DNA of 64,000 nt, from positions 11,654,001 through 11,718,000 of the forward strand of contig NC_092569.1 in the NCBI RefSeq assembly GCF_037975245.1, read 5' to 3'. The position numbers were made by a program, and so were the translations under genes. This DNA is from Apostichopus japonicus. Taxonomy: Eukaryota > Echinodermata > Holothuroidea > Aspidochirotida > Stichopodidae. The notes beneath the pieces are model-generated. The model did no database searches and was not told the DNA's origin. It saw nothing but the letters and a program-made list of their open reading frames with translations. Below are positions 4,684 to 56,900 of the stretch, one piece after another (position 1 is the first letter of the stretch; each line of letters starts with the position of its first letter).

Positions 4684-5733
4684 CTAGAAGTCAGTCTCGT
4701 TGTTACAGAGACGTGCGTATCGTAATATTTCCCCTTTAATGAAGCCTTTAAAAGTGGCAAGTGGGTGTGCAGAGTTTCTGTCGAGGTATTGAAAGGTTTC
4801 CGTGGGTTTGGTGTGGACTTTAGTGTCTAATAACCCATTGGTTTCGAGCCTTGTACCTTTGAAGATTTTCAAATCTAGGTATGTTACCTCGGTGTTTGAT
4901 ATTTCTACCGTAAACTTTAAGAAGCGGTGAATTTCATTCAACTTTTTTACTAGGTGTTCAAGTTCCTGATGTGTACCGTCGTAGAGCAATAGAATGTCAT
5001 CTCTATAGCGGAGCCATTTTAAGAGTTTATTATCTGTCGGTAAAATCTGGTTTTCAAGTCTATGCATGACGATATCGCAGATTTCCGGAGAGGCTTGGCT
5101 ACCCATGGCGCAACCGATCTTTTGTAGATAGAATTGGTTATAGAACTCGAAACAGTTTCTTGTTAAGATGAGTTCAATTAGTTTGCGCATGGATATGGAA
5201 GATATTTTATTTATTCCATATTCGCTTTGTTCCGTCTTTTCATAGACTTCTTGACATATATCTAATGCCTCCTCTTGGGGAGTATTGGTATACATGGCGA
5301 CGACATCGAGTGTAGCGAGTACTACCGTTTTTGGTAACGGGGTGGCTTCCAAAATTTGCAGAATGTGATTTGTGTCTTTCACATAAGTGCTTTGTTTTAT
5401 TACAATAGGAAGCAAGAAATAGTTCACAAATTCCGATATTTTTTCGGTCGGTGATCCGTTTCCACTTATTATCGGTCTACCGGCAAATTTTGAGTTAGCC
5501 GGGGGTGCTTTATGAATTTTTGGTAGAACATATATGACCGGTGTGCGGATCTTGTGGCTATATGGTGACAAGTACTCGAAGGTGCTTTTATCGATCTCTT
5601 TTGCAGAGAACATATCAATTAGTGTTTCCTGGACTAAACTTTTAGTTTGAAACGTCATATCACTTGTTAACTTTTCGTAGTGGTGACTAGCTAATTGCCT
5701 TTCAATTTCGGCTTGATAGTCTGAGTGATTCAA
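4684..5733 (-). CDS. Penelope-like reverse transcriptase fragment
   Basis: A 349-residue open frame that belongs to the element, not the host. Reverse-transcriptase blocks appear in order: YVLPKIHK, GRPIISGNGSPTEKIS, LATLDVVAMYTNTP (catalytic Asp), GCAMGSQASPEICD, RYRDDILLLYDG (catalytic Asp pair in Y-R-D-D rather than the usual Y-V-D-D), and YLDLKIF. After these, VHTKPTETFQYLDRNSAHP is typical of Penelope-like elements. Upstream of the first Met the frame continues as LDKGRGIAIL, the usual DKG block, so the true start lies in the missing 5' part. The product is unlikely to be active, because it is truncated and frameshifted at its C end. Confidence 0.85.
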   Translation of the reverse strand: MNHSDYQAEIERQLASHHYEKLTSDMTFQTKSLVQETLIDMFSAKEIDKSTFEYLSPYSHKIRTPVIYVLPKIHKAPPANSKFAGRPIISGNGSPTEKISEFVNYFLLPIVIKQSTYVKDTNHILQILEATPLPKTVVLATLDVVAMYTNTPQEEALDICQEVYEKTEQSEYGINKISSISMRKLIELILTRNCFEFYNQFYLQKIGCAMGSQASPEICDIVMHRLENQILPTDNKLLKWLRYRDDILLLYDGTHQELEHLVKKLNEIHRFLKFTVEISNTEVTYLDLKIFKGTRLETNGLLDTKVHTKPTETFQYLDRNSAHPLATFKGFIKGEILRYARLCNNETDF

Positions 5734-5768
5734 TATAGCAATGCCTCTACCTTTATCTAACGAAGAAT

Positions 5769-5820
5769 CTTGGCCACTACGTTGCGTTAGATAGTGTAAA
5801 ACCGCCTACACCCCCATTTC
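5769..5820. repeat. right inverted repeat of the Penelope-like unit
   Basis: Exact 52-bp reverse complement of 3969-4020. Confidence 0.9.
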
Positions 5821-8189: not shown

Positions 8190-8756
8190 CTAAAGCCTAA
8201 AAAGATTAGTTTTCAAATGCTTCTTTAAAGTGTCAATAGATGTGACATTTCTCAAGTGATGAGGAAGAGAATTCCAGAGTTTAGGACCTGCTGCACTAAA
8301 AGAACAATCTCCATATGTGACTTTGTTAGTACGAGGAATGACTAGAGAACGATGACTTTGGGACCGTAATGCTCTAGCTGGCGTGTAGCGTTTCACCAAA
8401 TCAGTCATATAACTCGGAGACTGATCATGAAGAATACGAGAAACGTGCAGAATGAGCTTTTGATTTATCCTGCGATGAATTGGCAACCAACGCAGGTCTC
8501 GGAGTACAGGAGTGATGTGTTCGTAACAAGGGCTGCTGGTGATAATGCTGGCAGCCGTATTTTGGACCCTCTGTAGTTTTTTGATAGAGGAGCATGACGT
8601 TCCAATCAGGAGAGTATTACAGTAATCGTGACGAGATGTAACCAGCGAATAGACGAGAGAATTAGTTACCTCCTCGTTAAGGGATGGACGAATTCTCCCG
8701 ATGATGCGTAATTGGTTGTAACAAGAGCGACTAATTAAATTTATATGGTTTTCCAT
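8190..8756 (-). pseudogene. LINE ORF2 C-terminal part
   Basis: A 188-residue frame with KLQRVQNTAASIIT, LRDLRWLPIHRRI and, at the end, GPKLWNSLPHHLRN followed by LKKHLKTNLF. These are standard C-terminal signatures of CR1-like reverse transcriptases. It continues the next piece after a frameshift around 8750. Confidence 0.85.
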
Positions 8757-9439
8757 AGAAAAATAGAGTCGAACAACACAACGAGATTCCGTACTGATGT
8801 CGAGGGTGGAATAACATCATTTCCCATTCTCAATGAAGGAAGGTGGATCGTTCGTTTGCTATGCTTTGAATGGAAAAATATCAAGTCTGTCTTGTCATCG
8901 TTAAGCTTAAGTATGTTATCAGCCATCCATTTTCTGACATCGCCAAGACATGTCTCCAATATATGTAAAGGATTAATTGCATCAGGAAAATCAAGTGGCT
9001 TAAACGAAAGGTAAATTTGGATGTCGTCAGCATACATATGGTAATCAAGGCCATGCTGCCAAGGCTCGCCCAGTGGTTTAGTATACATGGTGTATAACTT
9101 TGGTCCTAGTACTGATTCCCGAGGAACACCATATTCAAGTAACAAAGGTGCAGATTTTATGTTATCAATGACGACGGACTGGCGTCTATTTTGAAGATAA
9201 GAAGTCATCCATTTTAAGGCGTTTCCGGTTATCCCATACATATTACGAACCCGATTTAGCAAAATTGAGTGATCGATGGTGTCAAATGCAGCAGATAAGT
9301 CCAGTAAAACTAATGCTACTGCCTTTCCGTCGTCTATGTTATGCATGATGTCGGACTGTACCTTGATTAGGGCTGTTTCGGTCGAATGTAACTTGGTATA
9401 GGCACTTTGATATTTTCCTTGAAGTTCGTTGTCGTCCAT
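8741..9439 (-). pseudogene. LINE reverse transcriptase core
   Basis: A frame of about 230 residues with LLDLSAAFDTIDHSILL, YADDIQIY (catalytic Y-A-D-D) and DKTDLIFF. The normally invariant GVPQGSVLGP reads GVPRESVLGP, so activity is doubtful even apart from the frameshifts. Confidence 0.85.
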
Positions 9440-9470
9440 GTACTGATCAGGGCGCCGAGCGACAACTCTC

Positions 9471-9665
9471 TTACCTTTGACGAGGGCGGTAGTTTTGAAG
9501 GATATTCTGATCTAGGCTTGCCTTCTTCAAAAGAGGTCGAATGTGCGCAGACTTGAAGTTATCAGTTACTTCACCATTCCGAAGAAATATGTTTATCAGT
9601 GATGTAATAATCGGTAGTAGAGGCTCCAGGCAATCTTTGAGTAACCAGGTAGGTATAGGGTCCAT
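9471..9665 (-). pseudogene. LINE reverse transcriptase N-terminal fragment
   Basis: Reads MDPIPTWLLKDCLEPLLPII and later RPLLKKASLD and NYRP, the first reverse-transcriptase block. A deletion or frameshift near 9440-9480 separates it from the core piece. In frame upstream is NRSGNTSCE, so the Met is internal. Confidence 0.75.
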
Positions 9666-18573: not shown

Positions 18574-21500
18574 CTGCAAAGAAGAACAAAGTTCAGATAT
18601 ATTAACATTCCATGTAATGGTCACTAAAAATCAGACATATTGATGTTGCTTGACATGAGAGATTTACTTATTAAGAGTTTCATTAATGAATTAACTTCCT
18701 TTTATCAGTCATTATGCCACTAATGCAAATTAAATATTATCGTATATTATTCTTAGTTTCTTTCTATTAGTTTTTTATTTTTATTTATACCAAAACTATA
18801 TTTCGGTACTGTGAAATTCCATATTATGCTGTAATATCTAATGACTAAGAAAAAGAAAATGAAATAAAATACATAAAAAAGCAAGATGAAGTAATTAATC
18901 CCATTTATAGAATTGACGTATAATAAGGTGTATCATAAAGTTCATACTGTTTTCAATGGACTAAACCGTAGTGAAGTAGTGTTAACTGGTACGGCATCTT
19001 TGGTGTTAGCAAAGTACACAAAATCAAACATTTTGTCCTGAATCTTCGGTTTGCCCTTCTGATATATTTTGTATTTTGTATATTCGAAGTAAGTATTGTA
19101 TATATGGTGCATGATTGCTGCTTGGACGTGTGTGCATAGGTCAGTGCATAGCAGAGGTGTCTATGTGTAGGTCTGAAATTGGACAAGAACATGTTATGAT
19201 AATGATTTACTTTGATGTTGATATTTAATGGGGTTGGTAATCTTATTGTGTCTTTGTTTTAGTGATTTATGAAAGGAAAGATACAAATCTCAAGAAGAGA
19301 AATATGGATAAATCAATCCATCCACTCGTCATCATGTTAATATATGACTGCATTATCACTGCAAATCATTTACCTATTAAAGTCTTCGGTCAAATATATG
19401 TAGGAAACCTTATAATATGATATTCCAAAGATAAAAAATGATAAAGAACAATTAACTACGTACAGACCGTAGAAGCATTTATAGTTGTAGAAGTGTGCAG
19501 ATATCTAAAGGATGTGTATGTTACCAAATAAATTGTAACAAACCCGCTGTTCCACTGTAGGTTCCAAGTTGAGATAACCGATATTTATCGCTTTCGTCAT
19601 TAATCCGGAAGTTGTCAAACTTGGCATAATATGGAGTACCATCTCTGTTCACCATATCAATCCTAATTTCATATCATTTTTGATTGGTCAAGATAGAAAG
19701 CTTATCATTTCCAAGCCAAAACTCGTGGTCTAAATCTCCAAAACCTTCTTTGTAGCTACTCCATCCGAGGTAGAAATCCACGGTTCCATCCACACGACGT
19801 TGAAAAACCTTTGTTTAAAAGTGTGAATAAAAGGAATACTTTTGTCATGATCAAATATAGCAAACTATTAACTAAATTGTCACATTTTAAGAAACATAAG
19901 AGTTGAAAATCGTTGACTTAAACGAATTTCAAGGAACTGATAAAGAAAAACCTCTTTAAAACATTTTTCATTAAAGCAATTTCCATTACGTAGATCGTTC
20001 ATTCTACTGCAGATATTAGCCTGTAATGAGAGTATGACAAAATCACAAAACGTTTGAAAGGGATCTTTAAATCGTGAGAAAGCAGATACATAGTAATGGC
20101 TTCAGTGTGGATCTGAAGGAAAATACAGTTCAGTATTTGTTCACTATAAGAATATATTATATTTGCATATTTTACTGATCGTTTAATATTCTATATAGAA
20201 TGGAACAGGGTAATTTTGATATATGGTAACTGTGGTTTAAAGTGAATCCATTAAGAACGAATATCCATTTTTATTTATAGCCTTGTATCAATAACGGTCA
20301 CTACACTGGTATGTGATTTACACTTGTTTGTCAAGATACCTATTCTACTACAATCGACCAGAAGGTATATTCTATCACTGTTGTACTTTTGTGTACAATA
20401 GTGCTTTGTAGTGCAATGTAATGCATTGTATTTTCTTACGTGCAGCTAGGGTATTGATAATGTTTGTTACAGTACAATGTAGTGTAGTCTTGTGTGTTCA
20501 TTGTGGTACAATATCTAAAGTGTAGTTTAATACAGTGTATTACCTAATAAGTGTGATCAATGCGGTTATGATCAATGGAATGACTTACCGTCCATCCTCC
20601 TCCGTCAGTCATGTTGCAGTAAACCTCAAAGGCCTCGCCGGTCCACCCGGTTGGTTTGATTCTGTATATATCGTTATCCTCGGATCCATCCTCGTAAATT
20701 ACCTGACAATCTTTAGGATGGCATGCATATTCTTCATCCCATGTGATCTGCCCGTTGGTACAAACACCTTTTCTTGTACATGCAGGGTTCACGTAAGAGC
20801 CACCTTCCTGAAACACAAAATTATTCTCCACTTTAGTGTTTACAGATTATATTTAACCCTGATGTTGTTTTTCTTATCATCCATGGTAAATACTGTTCTG
20901 TATCGTAATGTCCCTTTGTAAGCACTAAAATTCCCTACGCGGAGTAAACTATAATTTGACAGGTATTCCTATAACCGTATAGTTAAATGGACTCAAAAAT
21001 TAATTTATTTATTGGAGTTTGATTGAACTTATATTGCATTCATTATAAAAGATAGTATTTTCAGTGACTGACTGGTTATATGGAGAAATCTTCAACAATG
21101 CTGTTGTTTGTAGAATAGTTGTTGAAAACTGTCATAGTGAATATTCTTTGACATATAGCTCCAGATTTGACTGCCTAAAAGTTTACAAATCAAATGAAAA
21201 ACAAACAACTTACTGGAATAACTGTTTGTCCCTCTGATTCGTAACATCCACACTGTTCTTGAGGTACACAGTCTGATCCCTTCATGAAGTATCCATCGGA
21301 ACAAACACAGGCTTCGGCTTCATTACAGACCCCATCCTGACACACTTCTGGAGCACCACAAGTCCGCTGACAGGAGTTACTGCAGTTTCTATAGACCATG
21401 TTGTAGGGACATAGTGTTATAACGTCTGCGGGAATAAATATGTCGGTAAAATTGAAACATATTGATGGTGTAAACTTCGTTGTGTATTTTAACTGCAATG

Positions 21501-35161: not shown

Positions 35162-35330
35162 TCAACACCTTCAGAAAGTGTTGTATGTACGTACAATCAT
35201 AATCTGTCCTGCGAGATTATCGGGGCTAAGTAGGATTGCTACCATCATGGCTTCATCATAATTTGGATAGCAATCGCAGCAAAATGTTCAAAAAGGACTC
35301 AAGAAACCCTTATATGCCCAACACCCAACA

Positions 35331-35677
35331 TCGTCTATACTATAGGATGTCTTATTTAATTTAACGTCCATCCTCCTCCGTCAGTCATATTATACTTATG
35401 TAAGTTATCGTCTATACTATAAAGTTGTCTTGCTAGATTTATCGTCCGTTCTCCTTCTTCGTCGGCCATACTTCATAAATATACAATACATTGTCTATAC
35501 TATAGGATGCAATACTAGACTTACCGTCCATCATCCTCCGTCAGTCATATTATACATATACAATGTATCGTATATGTAACAGGATGTCATACTAGACTTA
35601 CCGTCCATCATCCTCCGTCAGTCATATTGTCCATATACAATATATCGTAATGTAATAGGATGTCATACTAGACTCAT
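35331..35677 (-). repeat. tandem array of a FReD exon end with splice donors
   Basis: Four units plus a partial fifth, spaced 77-81 bp (cores at about 35364, 35443, 35524 and 35601). On the minus strand the core reads ATGACTGACGGAGGATGATGG then ACG, followed in units 3 and 4 by GTAAGTC. That is the MTDGGGWT exon end and donor seen in M2 exon 6, with one-base differences. Unit 2 is the most diverged, and units 1 and 2 have lost the donor. The rest of each unit is AT-rich and resembles no coding sequence. Confidence 0.85.
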
Positions 35678-36006: not shown

Positions 36007-36087
36007 ATGGAGTACCAAAGAAGGGAACTTTTCTGCGTCAACTTTTTCACATTGTTGATGGGATGGAATGTCCTTGCATTAATAACG
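36007..36087 (+). CDS. P1 exon 1: signal peptide
   Basis: 27 codons starting [20 protein letters not shown], ending LALIT at donor GTAAGT. The assignment to P1 rests on phase, position and signal character, because intron 1 is 5.2 kb. Confidence 0.7.
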
Positions 36088-50600: not shown

Positions 50601-51016
50601 TACGGAGAGCCAAACGTTCCATAAATGTCGAAAAAGAAAGTGAAGTGTCCAAGTTAATATATATATGTCCAAATCGATATCAACATGTTACAATTCGATA
50701 TCAGCATGTTACAATTCCATATGAACATGTCGAAACAAAATACAATATGCCATTGCGTCTATCAACATGTCAAATTCAACATCAGCATGTCGAAAACTTG
50801 TAACAGCATGCCATTACTACATTGGTCATGTCAACATGCTATATTTACGTCGTGCTATAATTTTGGCACTTCGGCGCGCGCCAACGTTTCGTATATGTCG
50901 AGATTTATTTCAGTATGTCCAAAACTTGTGTCAGCATGGTGAGCGAAGAGTAGTGAAGTATTGCCATGACAACGTTGCACATGGTTCGTGTCGTTCACAC
51001 GGTACTATGGTTGAAT
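50601..51016 (+). repeat. left arm of the foldback element
   Basis: Begins TACGGAGAGCCAAACG. The 85-codon open frame at 50685-50942 is repeated residue for residue in the right arm, reflecting near-identical DNA rather than a gene. Confidence 0.9.
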
Positions 51017-51152
51017 ATACTGTAGCGGAAAGCTACGACTTTTCCTTAGTGAGATACGTTTCGTTCCCTCAGGGGTTACATCTGTTGCGCTCCGCGGAGG
51101 TAACGAGAGATGTTTATCCGAAACAGGAACAGGAACTGATTACGTAATTTTG

Positions 51153-51550
51153 CTATATCGATGTATTCCCGTGACTGGCATAGGCAGGCACGGCGGTGGG
51201 TGTGTGAGTCGATCCCATTGTTCGCAACTCATCTAAAAAACTGTGACCTTCACCTGCAACAGACATACAGTTTAAGTACTGTAAAAATATTAAAGCATTC
51301 TGAGTACTCTTAACTTTCATGTAACGTTTTTTAAGGGCAAATGGCACATAACCTGCTAATTATCTTAGAATTTGTTCCTCATGTTTTTCAACAATTAATG
51401 TATCTTCCAAATTTATGTCGTCTGGAACATCCATCCTCTCAAACTCTTCAATCATCAGCTTCACCATAAATTCAACTATATCCTGTAGCATGAACATTTC
51501 TAATGTCCTCGGCGGATGCAAAGTTTTTTGGCAGCCATGTTTCGTGTTAA
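51153..51550 (-). pseudogene. internal ORF remnant of the foldback element
   Basis: One continuous minus-strand frame with a single stop: HGCQKTLHPPRTLEMFMLQD, then EEQILR, stop, LAGYVPFALKKRYMKVKSTQ, then LNCMSVAGEGHSFLDELRTM. It is not recognised. It may be the end of a transposon-encoded protein carried between the arms. Confidence 0.4.
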
Positions 51551-52267
51551 ATTAATTTTGTTAATTTTATAACACTAGGTTCCCAATGCAATAACAAACA
51601 GCACTAACGTTATTTGCCTAACGAACGAAGAAAAGTTTTATTTCATTTATTTTATTTTTCCATTTCCTCACAATGTTTATATAATAATAGGACTGTGAAG
51701 ACAATACCATGCAAAGAAAATAATAAGTAATAAATCATATAAAAGAAAAATAATGGAAATTTCGGAGAGAAAATGGTGGAAGGGCTTGGAAGCCGTAGCT
51801 TGTACAAGAAGCCCACCAAAAATAAAGATAACAAGTATAAGGTATATGGGCAAGATAGTAAAGCCCCTTACACTTGACTAAAAGTACCTATTTCGCCATT
51901 ACTTGTTCATATATTGCGATGAAATATATGCTGAGATAAACAATTAATTATTAAATACGAATCTTCGCATGATTCGGTGAGAAATGAAAGATATATTCCG
52001 ATCGAAATTCTCACAGGTATGCGTAACGTAACATATATGAGTACTGTGTATACTATTTCAATTACATATACGTTAGGATCGGAGTGTCTGTTGTTATGTT
52101 GTGAGGGACGCTATATACGAAATGACCTTTGTACCAGGATTACGTAATAGCTGATGATGGCTTTACCCGTGTTTGTGCCCTGAGGCATGTTTACTTATGG
52201 CGATCAAATTTTGTCGGTTACAATGATACTTCAAAGTGGGTTTTCTCCTTCTGTTTATAGCTCCATG

Positions 52268-52683
52268 ATTCAACCATAGTACCGTGTGAACGACACGAAC
52301 CATGTGCAACGTTGTCATGGCAATACTTCACTACTCTTCGCTCACCATGCTGACACAAGTTTTGGACATACTGAAATAAATCTCGACATATACGAAACGT
52401 TGGCGCGCGCCGAAGTGCCAAAATTATAGCACGACGTAAATATAGCATGTTGACATGACCAATGTAGTAATGGCATGCTGTTACAAGTTTTCGACATGCT
52501 GATGTTGAATTTGACATGTTGATAGACGCAATGGCATATTGTATTTTGTTTCGACATGTTCATATGGAATTGTAACATGCTGATATCGAATTGTAACATG
52601 TTGATATCGATTTGGACATATATATATTAACTTGGACACTTCACTTTCTTTTTCGACATTTATTGAACGTTTGGCTCTCCGTA
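52268..52683 (-). repeat. right arm of the foldback element
   Basis: Reverse complement of 50601-51016; the one difference I found is C against A near the outer end (GTTCCATA against GTTCAATA). Confidence 0.9.
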
Positions 52684-53981: not shown

Positions 53982-56900
53982 GTAAGTAGTTCATCTAGCA
54001 ATTCATCACCAAGAGAGCATAATTAGTTCTTTTTTTTTTATTTTGACACTATATACACAGCGCTTAATTACTCTCCGACCATTGCAAAGAACATGATAAC
54101 TTTAATGTCAATATTGAAATTCAATATTTTAAAGCGACGCTTGACATAACGTTTAATGAAATTTCTATTTGTTTAACGTGTCATACCACACTCCTCCTGA
54201 CACCACGCTCTCTCTCTCTCTTTCTCTCTTATATTTGAAGGCATATTCTAAACAAAACATGTTTGATAGCCACACATAATTGGAAACCAGGTTTTCTATG
54301 TGGTTACCACGAGAGAATGTTGTGACTTCAAAATTAATGAACTGTTTAATTTCCATTTACAATATATTGATGGTTTAACCGTGGTCATCGTTCCTTATTC
54401 AAATTTGGTAAGCAAAATGAACAGATATGTGTTTCCAGGTATCACAGTTCCCATAACTGTTATATATGGTGACTTCATACATGGCACAATTTGAAGCAAC
54501 AAACAGCTTCAAAACAATGTTTTGACTGTGTCCTTTACTATGTGGGTAAACAATAGTTAACTCATCATTATTTTGAGTTAGTATGTTTATATGGTAAAAT
54601 CAACATATTATCGTTAATTTTTAATCGATTCAGGCGCGGATTGAACCTTAAACACAAAAACACAACCAGGCGTGGTAATAAGTACAATCTTAATAAACTT
54701 AGTTATCAGAACTAATTTATAGTCTAAATTTGATACAGAATGCGTCATATGTAGTCTAAATTTAATTTTTTTTCTGGGAAATTGCCACTATATGAGAGGC
54801 CTCTTCAAGAAAACAACGGCCACATCCTTGCCTTTCTGAAATCCTGATCGGTGATCATCTCTGATCGGTGATAATTAAAATAAAATACTATATAATGGAT
54901 ATCTCCGAATTACAGGTGATTCAAAGTTTGCGGCAATGAAAATAATCTGTAAAGTAATATAATATGTTAATGAAATTATTTTACAGGATGCTTCCCTTCT
55001 TCGAATATAAATTTGCATTAATATAAGCCCCTTGGGTTAAATAATTTGTATTCATTCTTGGTCGGTGCTTATTTAAATGAAATACTATATTATGGATATC
55101 TCCGAGGTACGAGTGATTCAAAATTTGCTGCACTGAAAACTATCTGTAAAGATAATATCATAATTATGTTAATGAAAATATTTAACAGAATTGCTTCCCT
55201 ACTGCAAACATAAATTTGTATTAATATAAACCCCATGGGATAAATAATTTGTATTGATCTTTGATCGGTGCTAATTAAAATGAAATATTATATTATGAAT
55301 ATCGCTAAGGTACAGGTGATTCAAACTTTGCGGCACTGAAAACTATATGTAAAGATAATATGATATGTTAATGAAAATACTTAACAAGATGCTTCCCTAT
55401 TCCCACAAACTTTTAAAAAATACAATAAAAACGGTTGATTCTCTCTGTAATAAGTATTTTGGAAATGATACACGCTGTGTAACTAGATCAATACATATTG
55501 TTTTCAATATAATGCAATAAAGTCGCTAAATCAATGATCTTTGGTAATTGATAATTAATATTCGATGTATGATAGCTGGCATGATAGATTGCCACATGAA
55601 AGCTAATATCAACAAGACAAAACTGCAGCAGCACTGCAAATACTGTAACGAACGCCTCGTGTTACATATCAATGGTCTTAGGTACTTGATTATTTATTAT
55701 CGATGCATGGCGACATTCACTATAGGGATTGTAAAGTGAAAGTTAATATCAAATATAGAAACAGTACAACAGCACTGCAGTTACTGTCATCATAGTATCG
55801 TGGTATACAGGGGAGAAGCCTCTTATTCAGGGTGGACAAAGTTGGACAATTTCCCCCAAGGAAAACCTAACACTGTTTACTGACTATATCTCTGGACGTA
55901 ATAAGTTTAAGCAGTGACTTTTGTATCACTAAAAAATATGATGAAAACACTCTTTTTCACTCAAAATAAGATTTCAGCGGGTCATTCGATACGTTTGTCA
56001 ACGTTTTGTCACCAAATGAACATTTTTACAGTAAGATATGATCCAAAAAGGAAACACGTGACAAGCTTTTGTTACATTTCGAGACAATTTTGTGTGGTTA
56101 TTGCCATGTCACGTTTAAGATGATGCTCGATGCCGCAATAGATCAACTACAAGGATATGATAATTCCCCAAAAAGTGAGTTAATGAAGCTTCCTACCAAA
56201 CCAGGAACCAATAACAAGTATTGCGCACACAGTAGTTCTTCGTAGTGTCAGTTAACTCTTCTACCATTAAGTACATACTTACCACAATCTTCCTGTTTTG
56301 CTACTTAATTGCTATATTATTTTTCACGCGGTTTTGATATATCGAGGGAAGTTAGGTTTTGTTAGTAAAATGTGTTAAATAAAAGAAGAAGATAATTCTT
56401 CCCTCGGGCTGATATTAACACTCAGTCTATAAAAATGTTATTAATATTTTACTTTCTACTTATTCTATAGCTGATATTGCCACACAAATGTTGTATGCTC
56501 AGCAAATATTTCCTTTAGTCTTTGAAGCATCATATTACAAGTTTCCGGGATAATACCCTCAGCCAAAATAAACCAAATATGATTTTTTCTGCATGACGTA
56601 TTAACACCACCTTCTGGATGGTAAAAGCCAGGAATCTTCATCTGAGAAAATATTTTTTACGTCAAGTCACATGCATTTCCTTATTGGGTTTACCTAGCTC
56701 AAGGGGTAGCCAATTCTCTCATTCAATGTTGGCAAGGTTTGGACGAGTTTCCAAAATTACAAAAAAATACAAATTCAACTATGGCTTTCCCATCTATTTC
56801 ACGTCAATATTGTTCATTCACCGGGACGTTGCCACCCCCCCCCCCCTCCCACCTATATAAACGTGTAAAGGCTAAACTCGTATTTTTCATTATTGTAAAT

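Follow-up and report, generated by a model that had tools for sequence, protein, structure and literature searches.

The minisatellite of the human gene 6-16 (G1P3/IFI6), reportedly described by Turri et al. in 1995, is said to supply multiple splice donors from a repeat unit much shorter than that of the fibrinogen-domain (FReD) arrays presented here. According to the available portion of PMC4526556, two downstream units of this 6-16/IFI6 minisatellite are used as donors. FReD arrays resemble it in holding donor sites inside a tandem repeat but, unlike in 6-16, every later donor would be predicted from the sequence to bring a stop codon.

One of the closest described systems is found in amphioxus, where tandem repeats of the exon–intron boundary in the Adh3 and globin genes were named 'mirages' (PMC3087553). 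The accessible parts of that report describe instability of these repeats, the presence of cryptic splice signals, and a seemingly undisturbed splicing. A minisatellite made from an exon–intron boundary had been considered unusual in the original prediction; it is indeed unusual, but it has a precedent, since the class of the mirages is already in print. Like the mirages of Adh3, BflGb6, and BflGb9, as far as the available text describes them, FReD arrays repeat the boundary within the gene, hold many units with splice signals, and probably undergo array turnover. However, the amphioxus mirages are presented there for one gene at a time; they have few units (two BflGb6 haplotypes hold 3 and 6) and are homogenised within clusters. 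FReD arrays, in contrast, share one unit among at least 41 family members on at least seven contigs, reach up to 68 copies, and exhibit almost no clustering by gene. A further difference from amphioxus is the array found in the window (the whole stretch of 64,000 nucleotides analysed here, C9:11654001-11718000 of a genome of 671.6 Mb), which is a copy outside its gene.

Variable families whose diversification has also been linked to repeats include Sp185/333, KIR, with its intron-1 minisatellite, and SmPoMuc, with its exon-2 repeats (available portions of PMC5103432 and PMC2576457). Similarly, FReD genes hold repeats within or around the family members and include mosaic genes produced via exchange. 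What sets the FReD genes apart from those families is that the exon boundary itself is repeated, with an effect on exchange no greater than in an array-free control. Literature searches on FReD minisatellites and tandem repeats, and on exon-boundary and splice-donor minisatellites, returned no FReD case in the titles and abstract openings listed. The intron arrays of the FReD genes are classed here as mirages, new as a family-wide form, and the window array as a displaced relic of these intron arrays.

The window array and its promoter copies

The window array extends over 35328-35676 on the minus strand and consists of 4.3 tandem units of ~77 bp each. Read on this strand, a complete unit comprises a FReD exon end (MTDGGGWT), a splice donor, and ~45 bp of intron. 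A core of 30 bases, covering the exon end and the donor, was used to compare the units with the rest of the window, where the following features are relevant:

35632..35676, minus strand: partial first unit; unit-model match to model positions 30-75, without exon part
35553..35628, minus strand: unit with MTDGG*WT and intact GTAAGT; core at 35596-35625, 1 mismatch
35479..35552, minus strand: unit with MTDGG*WT and intact GTAAGT; core at 35519-35548, 1 mismatch
35394..35470, minus strand: diverged unit (ATGGCCGAC...), donor changed to ATAAAT; unit-model match
35328..35392, minus strand: unit with intact MTDGGGWT, donor changed to TTAAAT; core at 35359-35388, 2 mismatches
36007..36087, plus strand: first coding exon, 27 codons followed by GTAAGT, of the gene with the array in its promoter; read from the sequence
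20589..20711, minus strand: real FReD exon ending in NMTDGGGWT, with a GTAAGT donor; tblastn, exact core, single unit-model match

The existence of a tandem array derived from a FReD exon end and its splice donor, as originally predicted, was confirmed by Tandem Repeats Finder (35342-35674, period 77, 4.3 copies, 74% matches), by a minus-strand search with the unit model, which recovered four complete units and one partial unit, and by the core matches. GTAAGT is intact in two of the four complete units, the third and fourth in plus-strand order, just as had been claimed, and in both of them the third Gly codon has become TGA. Another complete unit holds MTDGGGWT without a donor, and the remaining one is diverged. 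The claim that every unit carries the exon end holds for the other complete units, but not for the diverged one (35394-35470), which reads MADEEGERT, lacks a donor, and deviates by 21.9% from the intron-array consensus. In the partial unit, clear similarity starts at donor position +4 (AGTCTAG...). With up to three mismatches allowed, the limit applied to both the window and the shuffle counts, the core matches the window at four places: three belong to the array, and the fourth, an exact match at 20583-20612, lies at the end of the real FReD exon. The unit model yields a single match at this exon (20589-20711), with no array behind it.

The array is antisense to a plus-strand, fibrinogen-like gene of the immune type whose ATG lies at 36007, which bears out the predicted distance of ~330 bp. 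The right flank of the array together with this first coding exon has 16 matches on contig C9, including the window itself and one partial match, and the left flank has 12. Ten of these 16 promoters, the window included, hold at least two clear units at nearly the same place, another three (L046, L047, and L049) retain weak fragments of 5-8 bits, and the unit-model search detected no units in the remaining three (L043, L045, and L050). An empty-site test on these unit-free promoters could not define a clean insertion junction, because L043 and L050 each lack a different stretch of the flank and L045 has no left-flank match. Contrary to the mirages, which are located in the intron beside the parent exon, the window array sits in the promoter of another gene, and no FReD exon, exon relic, or match to the introns of array-bearing genes was found in its flanks.

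Complete promoter units deviate on average by 12.8% from the intron consensus, compared with 3.6% for the intron units. GTRAGT is kept in 13 of the 34 complete promoter units, with at least one in each of the ten promoter arrays, so that a reading based purely on decay must ascribe these remaining donors to shared ancestry. Of the three explanations proposed in the original prediction, a relic is the one that fits best, the array being decayed and, in 6 of the 16 promoter copies, either missing or reduced to fragments. Neither a decoy donor cluster nor a seed for new exons is supported at this place, where the array is antisense, decayed, devoid of a flanking FReD exon, and missing or fragmentary in those same six promoters.

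Some promoter arrays exhibit a higher level of organization. In that of L002 (1283-1722), three units recur together as a higher-order repeat with a period of 235 bp (92% matches), and in that of L003 one order of three unit types occurs twice. It seems, from these two cases, that the promoter array expanded again after leaving the intron.

The window also contains a separate tandem array at 54855-55399 (period 203 bp, 2.7 copies, 83% matches in Tandem Repeats Finder). The region 50670-52614 holds one 21-bp repeat and one open frame on opposite strands at both of its ends, suggesting a large inverted repeat. Two minus-strand open frames, at 4684-5805 and 8190-9511, resemble by eye pieces of the reverse transcriptase of retroelements.

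Intron arrays of the FReD genes

At least 227 matches to the window array were found throughout the genome, many of them within arrays of several kb, and the core, with up to two mismatches, occurs at 1249 genomic sites, compared with none for a reversed-pattern control. Twenty-one array-bearing FReD genes from seven contigs were fetched. All 21 have the real exon end (...NMTDGGGWT) and its donor as their first unit; L008, L017, and L018 differ here by one amino acid. Each intron unit is composed of 28 bp of exon end, the donor, and the spacer. From 6 to 68 units per gene, counting first and partial units, run into the intron, a number that differs between genes within one assembly. The array is unbroken in 17 of the 21 genes and bears one interruption of 0.2-3.7 kb in each of L005, L008, L017, and L018. 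Nineteen genes have the next FReD exon within reach, and in these it starts 0.2-1.8 kb behind the end of the array. The exon before the array is free of stop codons in 21/21 genes, as is the next exon in 19/19, and example exons from both sides were assigned to Fibrinogen_C by Pfam. The terms 'exon 6' and 'exon 7' for these exons are working names that follow the original prediction, rather than part of a full gene model.

A search for exact exon-end sites (TTCTGTAAY...) revealed that 32 of 48 are followed by another unit in register. Together with one site outside those 48, these make 33 places, to which eight further array genes among those fetched (L008, L012, L014, L018, L022, L024, L028, and L064) have to be added, indicating that at least 41 genes carry an array. 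Three signature features of mirages are present in these arrays: the units span the exon–intron boundary and the authentic boundary constitutes one end (both in 21/21 genes), and many but not all of the units carry splice signals, with GTRAGT in 501 of the 588 later units. In 16 array-free FReD genes, including the one in the window, the unit model matches the exon end and donor alone, with 27-32 bits and no spacer.

The exon-like part of the unit is merely ~28 bp long, which could favour the view that the likeness of the window array to a FReD exon end is due to chance, or that the repeat is an unrelated satellite. However, none of 100 dinucleotide shuffles of the window contained a core match, and a chance resemblance was the outcome named beforehand as the one to count against the prediction. 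Furthermore, the unit, spacer included, begins at the real exon end in each of the 21 fetched genes. This explanation is refuted by both results and retains practically no probability.

Splicing, homogeneity, and exchange

GT is conserved in 556 of the 588 units beyond the first (eight of which have no letters at the donor), and most also keep the whole GTRAGT, as mentioned above. Reading past the first donor leads to an in-frame stop within 24 nt in 21/21 genes (the 9 nt of L018 reflect a unit start set 3 bases late), and consequently any later donor would give a truncated product. These features, along with the use of the human 6-16/IFI6 minisatellite as alternative donors in the available text of PMC4526556, would be compatible with a function of the arrays in splicing, in which successive decoy or poison 5' splice sites, arranged like a ladder, set the amount of correct FReD mRNA and the copy number works as a dial. 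Against this idea, among the units beyond the first, the donor comes 38th in conservation out of 66 hexamer positions, and its deviation of 4.5% does not fall short of the values for the intron spacer (3.9%) and the exon part (2.7%), so neither measure reveals any donor-specific conservation in units 2 and later. Likewise, RT-PCR of the amphioxus globin mirages suggests no interference with splicing, according to the accessible parts of PMC3087553. Because later donors add an early stop and donors are not specially conserved, a role of the arrays in splicing appears unlikely, with no sign of selection for extra donors in the sequences, and the dial mechanism in particular is quite improbable.

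The sequence of the units is almost uniform across the family. When majority units were compared over 77 positions in 23 loci, which are parts of the 21 genes, they were identical in 19 loci and differed at only one or two positions in the other four. The surroundings are far more variable, with differences between array genes of 23% (median; mean 19%) in the exon preceding the unit, 18% (mean 16%) in the next exon, and 53% (mean 40%) in the intron tails of 16 genes, a value that includes tails not truly aligning. The difference between individual units is 6.2% when they come from one locus and 7.1% when they come from different loci, the latter being 6.9% between different contigs and 7.4% on the same contig. 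Single-linkage clustering sorts the introns before the exon into six groups and the tails into seven, with no alignment between groups. Neither of these two flanks can be aligned in 119 of the 210 gene pairs, in which the units differ by 7.45%. Near-uniform units in unalignable backgrounds are not expected of descent without exchange, but of exchange or recent spread. Since units differ by 7.5% across unalignable introns and by 6.2% within a gene, this pattern argues for arrays having been exchanged or spread between FReD genes on at least seven contigs, probably through conversion or crossing-over. A comparison of the first four and last four units at the array ends provided no clear locus signature or record of exchange among related genes.

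Two other potential signs were discarded. Uniform codons at the exon end were rejected as an indication of conversion, because array-free FReD genes from the 6.3 and 11 Mb clusters use identical codons. The exon part of 319 of 561 repeated units still reads MTDGGGWT, and the apparent coding constraint was not taken as selection, the excess in third-position rate being mainly due to one CpG site.

Exchange between FReD genes takes place at this intron. Every possible pairing of two 5' types with two 3' types is found. From just behind the array, L014 and L026 are 94% identical over ~5 kb, but their identity is 76% in the exon preceding it and, still further upstream, either 78% or absent. For L026 and L027, identity reaches 94% along the 1.7 kb preceding the array and 85-91% in pieces up to 8 kb, with a tail behind it at 76%. 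Both pairs place the switch somewhere from the exon to the 3' end of the array. AU tests on 7 of the 21 genes also reject a shared grouping (p=4.7e-4 upstream and 5.8e-13 downstream). It has been considered on these grounds that the arrays function as a recombination platform, whose blocks of shared identity let FReD genes swap the parts before and behind the array, thereby diversifying the family. However, array-free FReD genes also switch at the same intron, and the proportion of discordant pairs is similar, with 7/13 without arrays and 20/32 with arrays (Fisher p=0.74), in a test that counts pairs with one close side, which are not independent, and where some discordance in both sets reflects poor coverage (as in L062-L063, whose next exon is shared at 94%). 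The 18-gene concordance test left out L009 and L017, with the next exon out of reach, and L006, with a short upstream stretch. The 17-gene 'array-free' control consists of 16 array-free genes and L064, which carries 7 units; none of its seven discordant pairs involves L064, and two include L061, where the next exon is out of reach. An effect of the arrays on exchange above the array-free control was not found, and a platform role is doubtful.

The three array-free genes L067, L068, and L069 look plainly mosaic, with L069 near L067 upstream and near L068 downstream, and exchange at this intron is consequently not confined to array genes.

A broader reading would regard the exon-boundary array as a moving satellite specific to this gene family, copied onto the exon ends of other genes and kept as a homogeneous set across chromosomes, with the donor serving as a common site of exchange, at which the 5' and 3' parts of the genes are recombined as well. 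What would allow this copying is that FReD genes of this group have one exon end and donor in common. This reading is tentative, and its odds are below even.

Proposed origin and significance

The window array is best explained, with a probability of roughly 0.8, as a decayed and displaced copy of a mirage, in which an ancestral FReD boundary was duplicated and spread among genes, and a piece of it landed in a promoter, where it is now decaying. According to this model, the last 28 bp of the NMTDGGGWT exon of an ancestral FReD gene, together with GTAAGT and ~45 bp of the intron, would have been duplicated in tandem, probably by means of the short word TGTA shared by the exon and intron breakpoints. 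The duplicated boundary would then have expanded up to the 6-68 copies present in the intron today, with the real exon end remaining as the first unit (21/21). Subsequent exchange or spread of the arrays among FReD genes on at least seven contigs would have decoupled the sequence of the units from their gene background. A small piece of an array may have entered the promoter of another FReD subfamily in antisense orientation, presumably before this promoter multiplied on C9, because its place and flanks are shared in 10 of the 16 promoters, including some of the most diverged ones. Having left the homogenisation with the intron arrays, the promoter piece would have decayed and disappeared from some copies, and the three unit-free promoters would have lost the array, rather than never having had it.

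The promoter array most likely has no present function. The intron array, in turn, is most likely a tolerated repeat that turns over by itself and would be removed by splicing from the first donor.

Exon-boundary minisatellites have so far been described in individual genes. In this case, dozens of members of an expanded immune-type family carry them, with hundreds of intact-looking donors in their introns. The FReD arrays represent a natural test of how the spliceosome chooses the first donor in a long series of near-identical ones, as well as of the way in which a repeat stays uniform in genes with surroundings too diverged to be aligned. The copy in the window illustrates the fate of such a repeat once it is outside the pool, which is decay.
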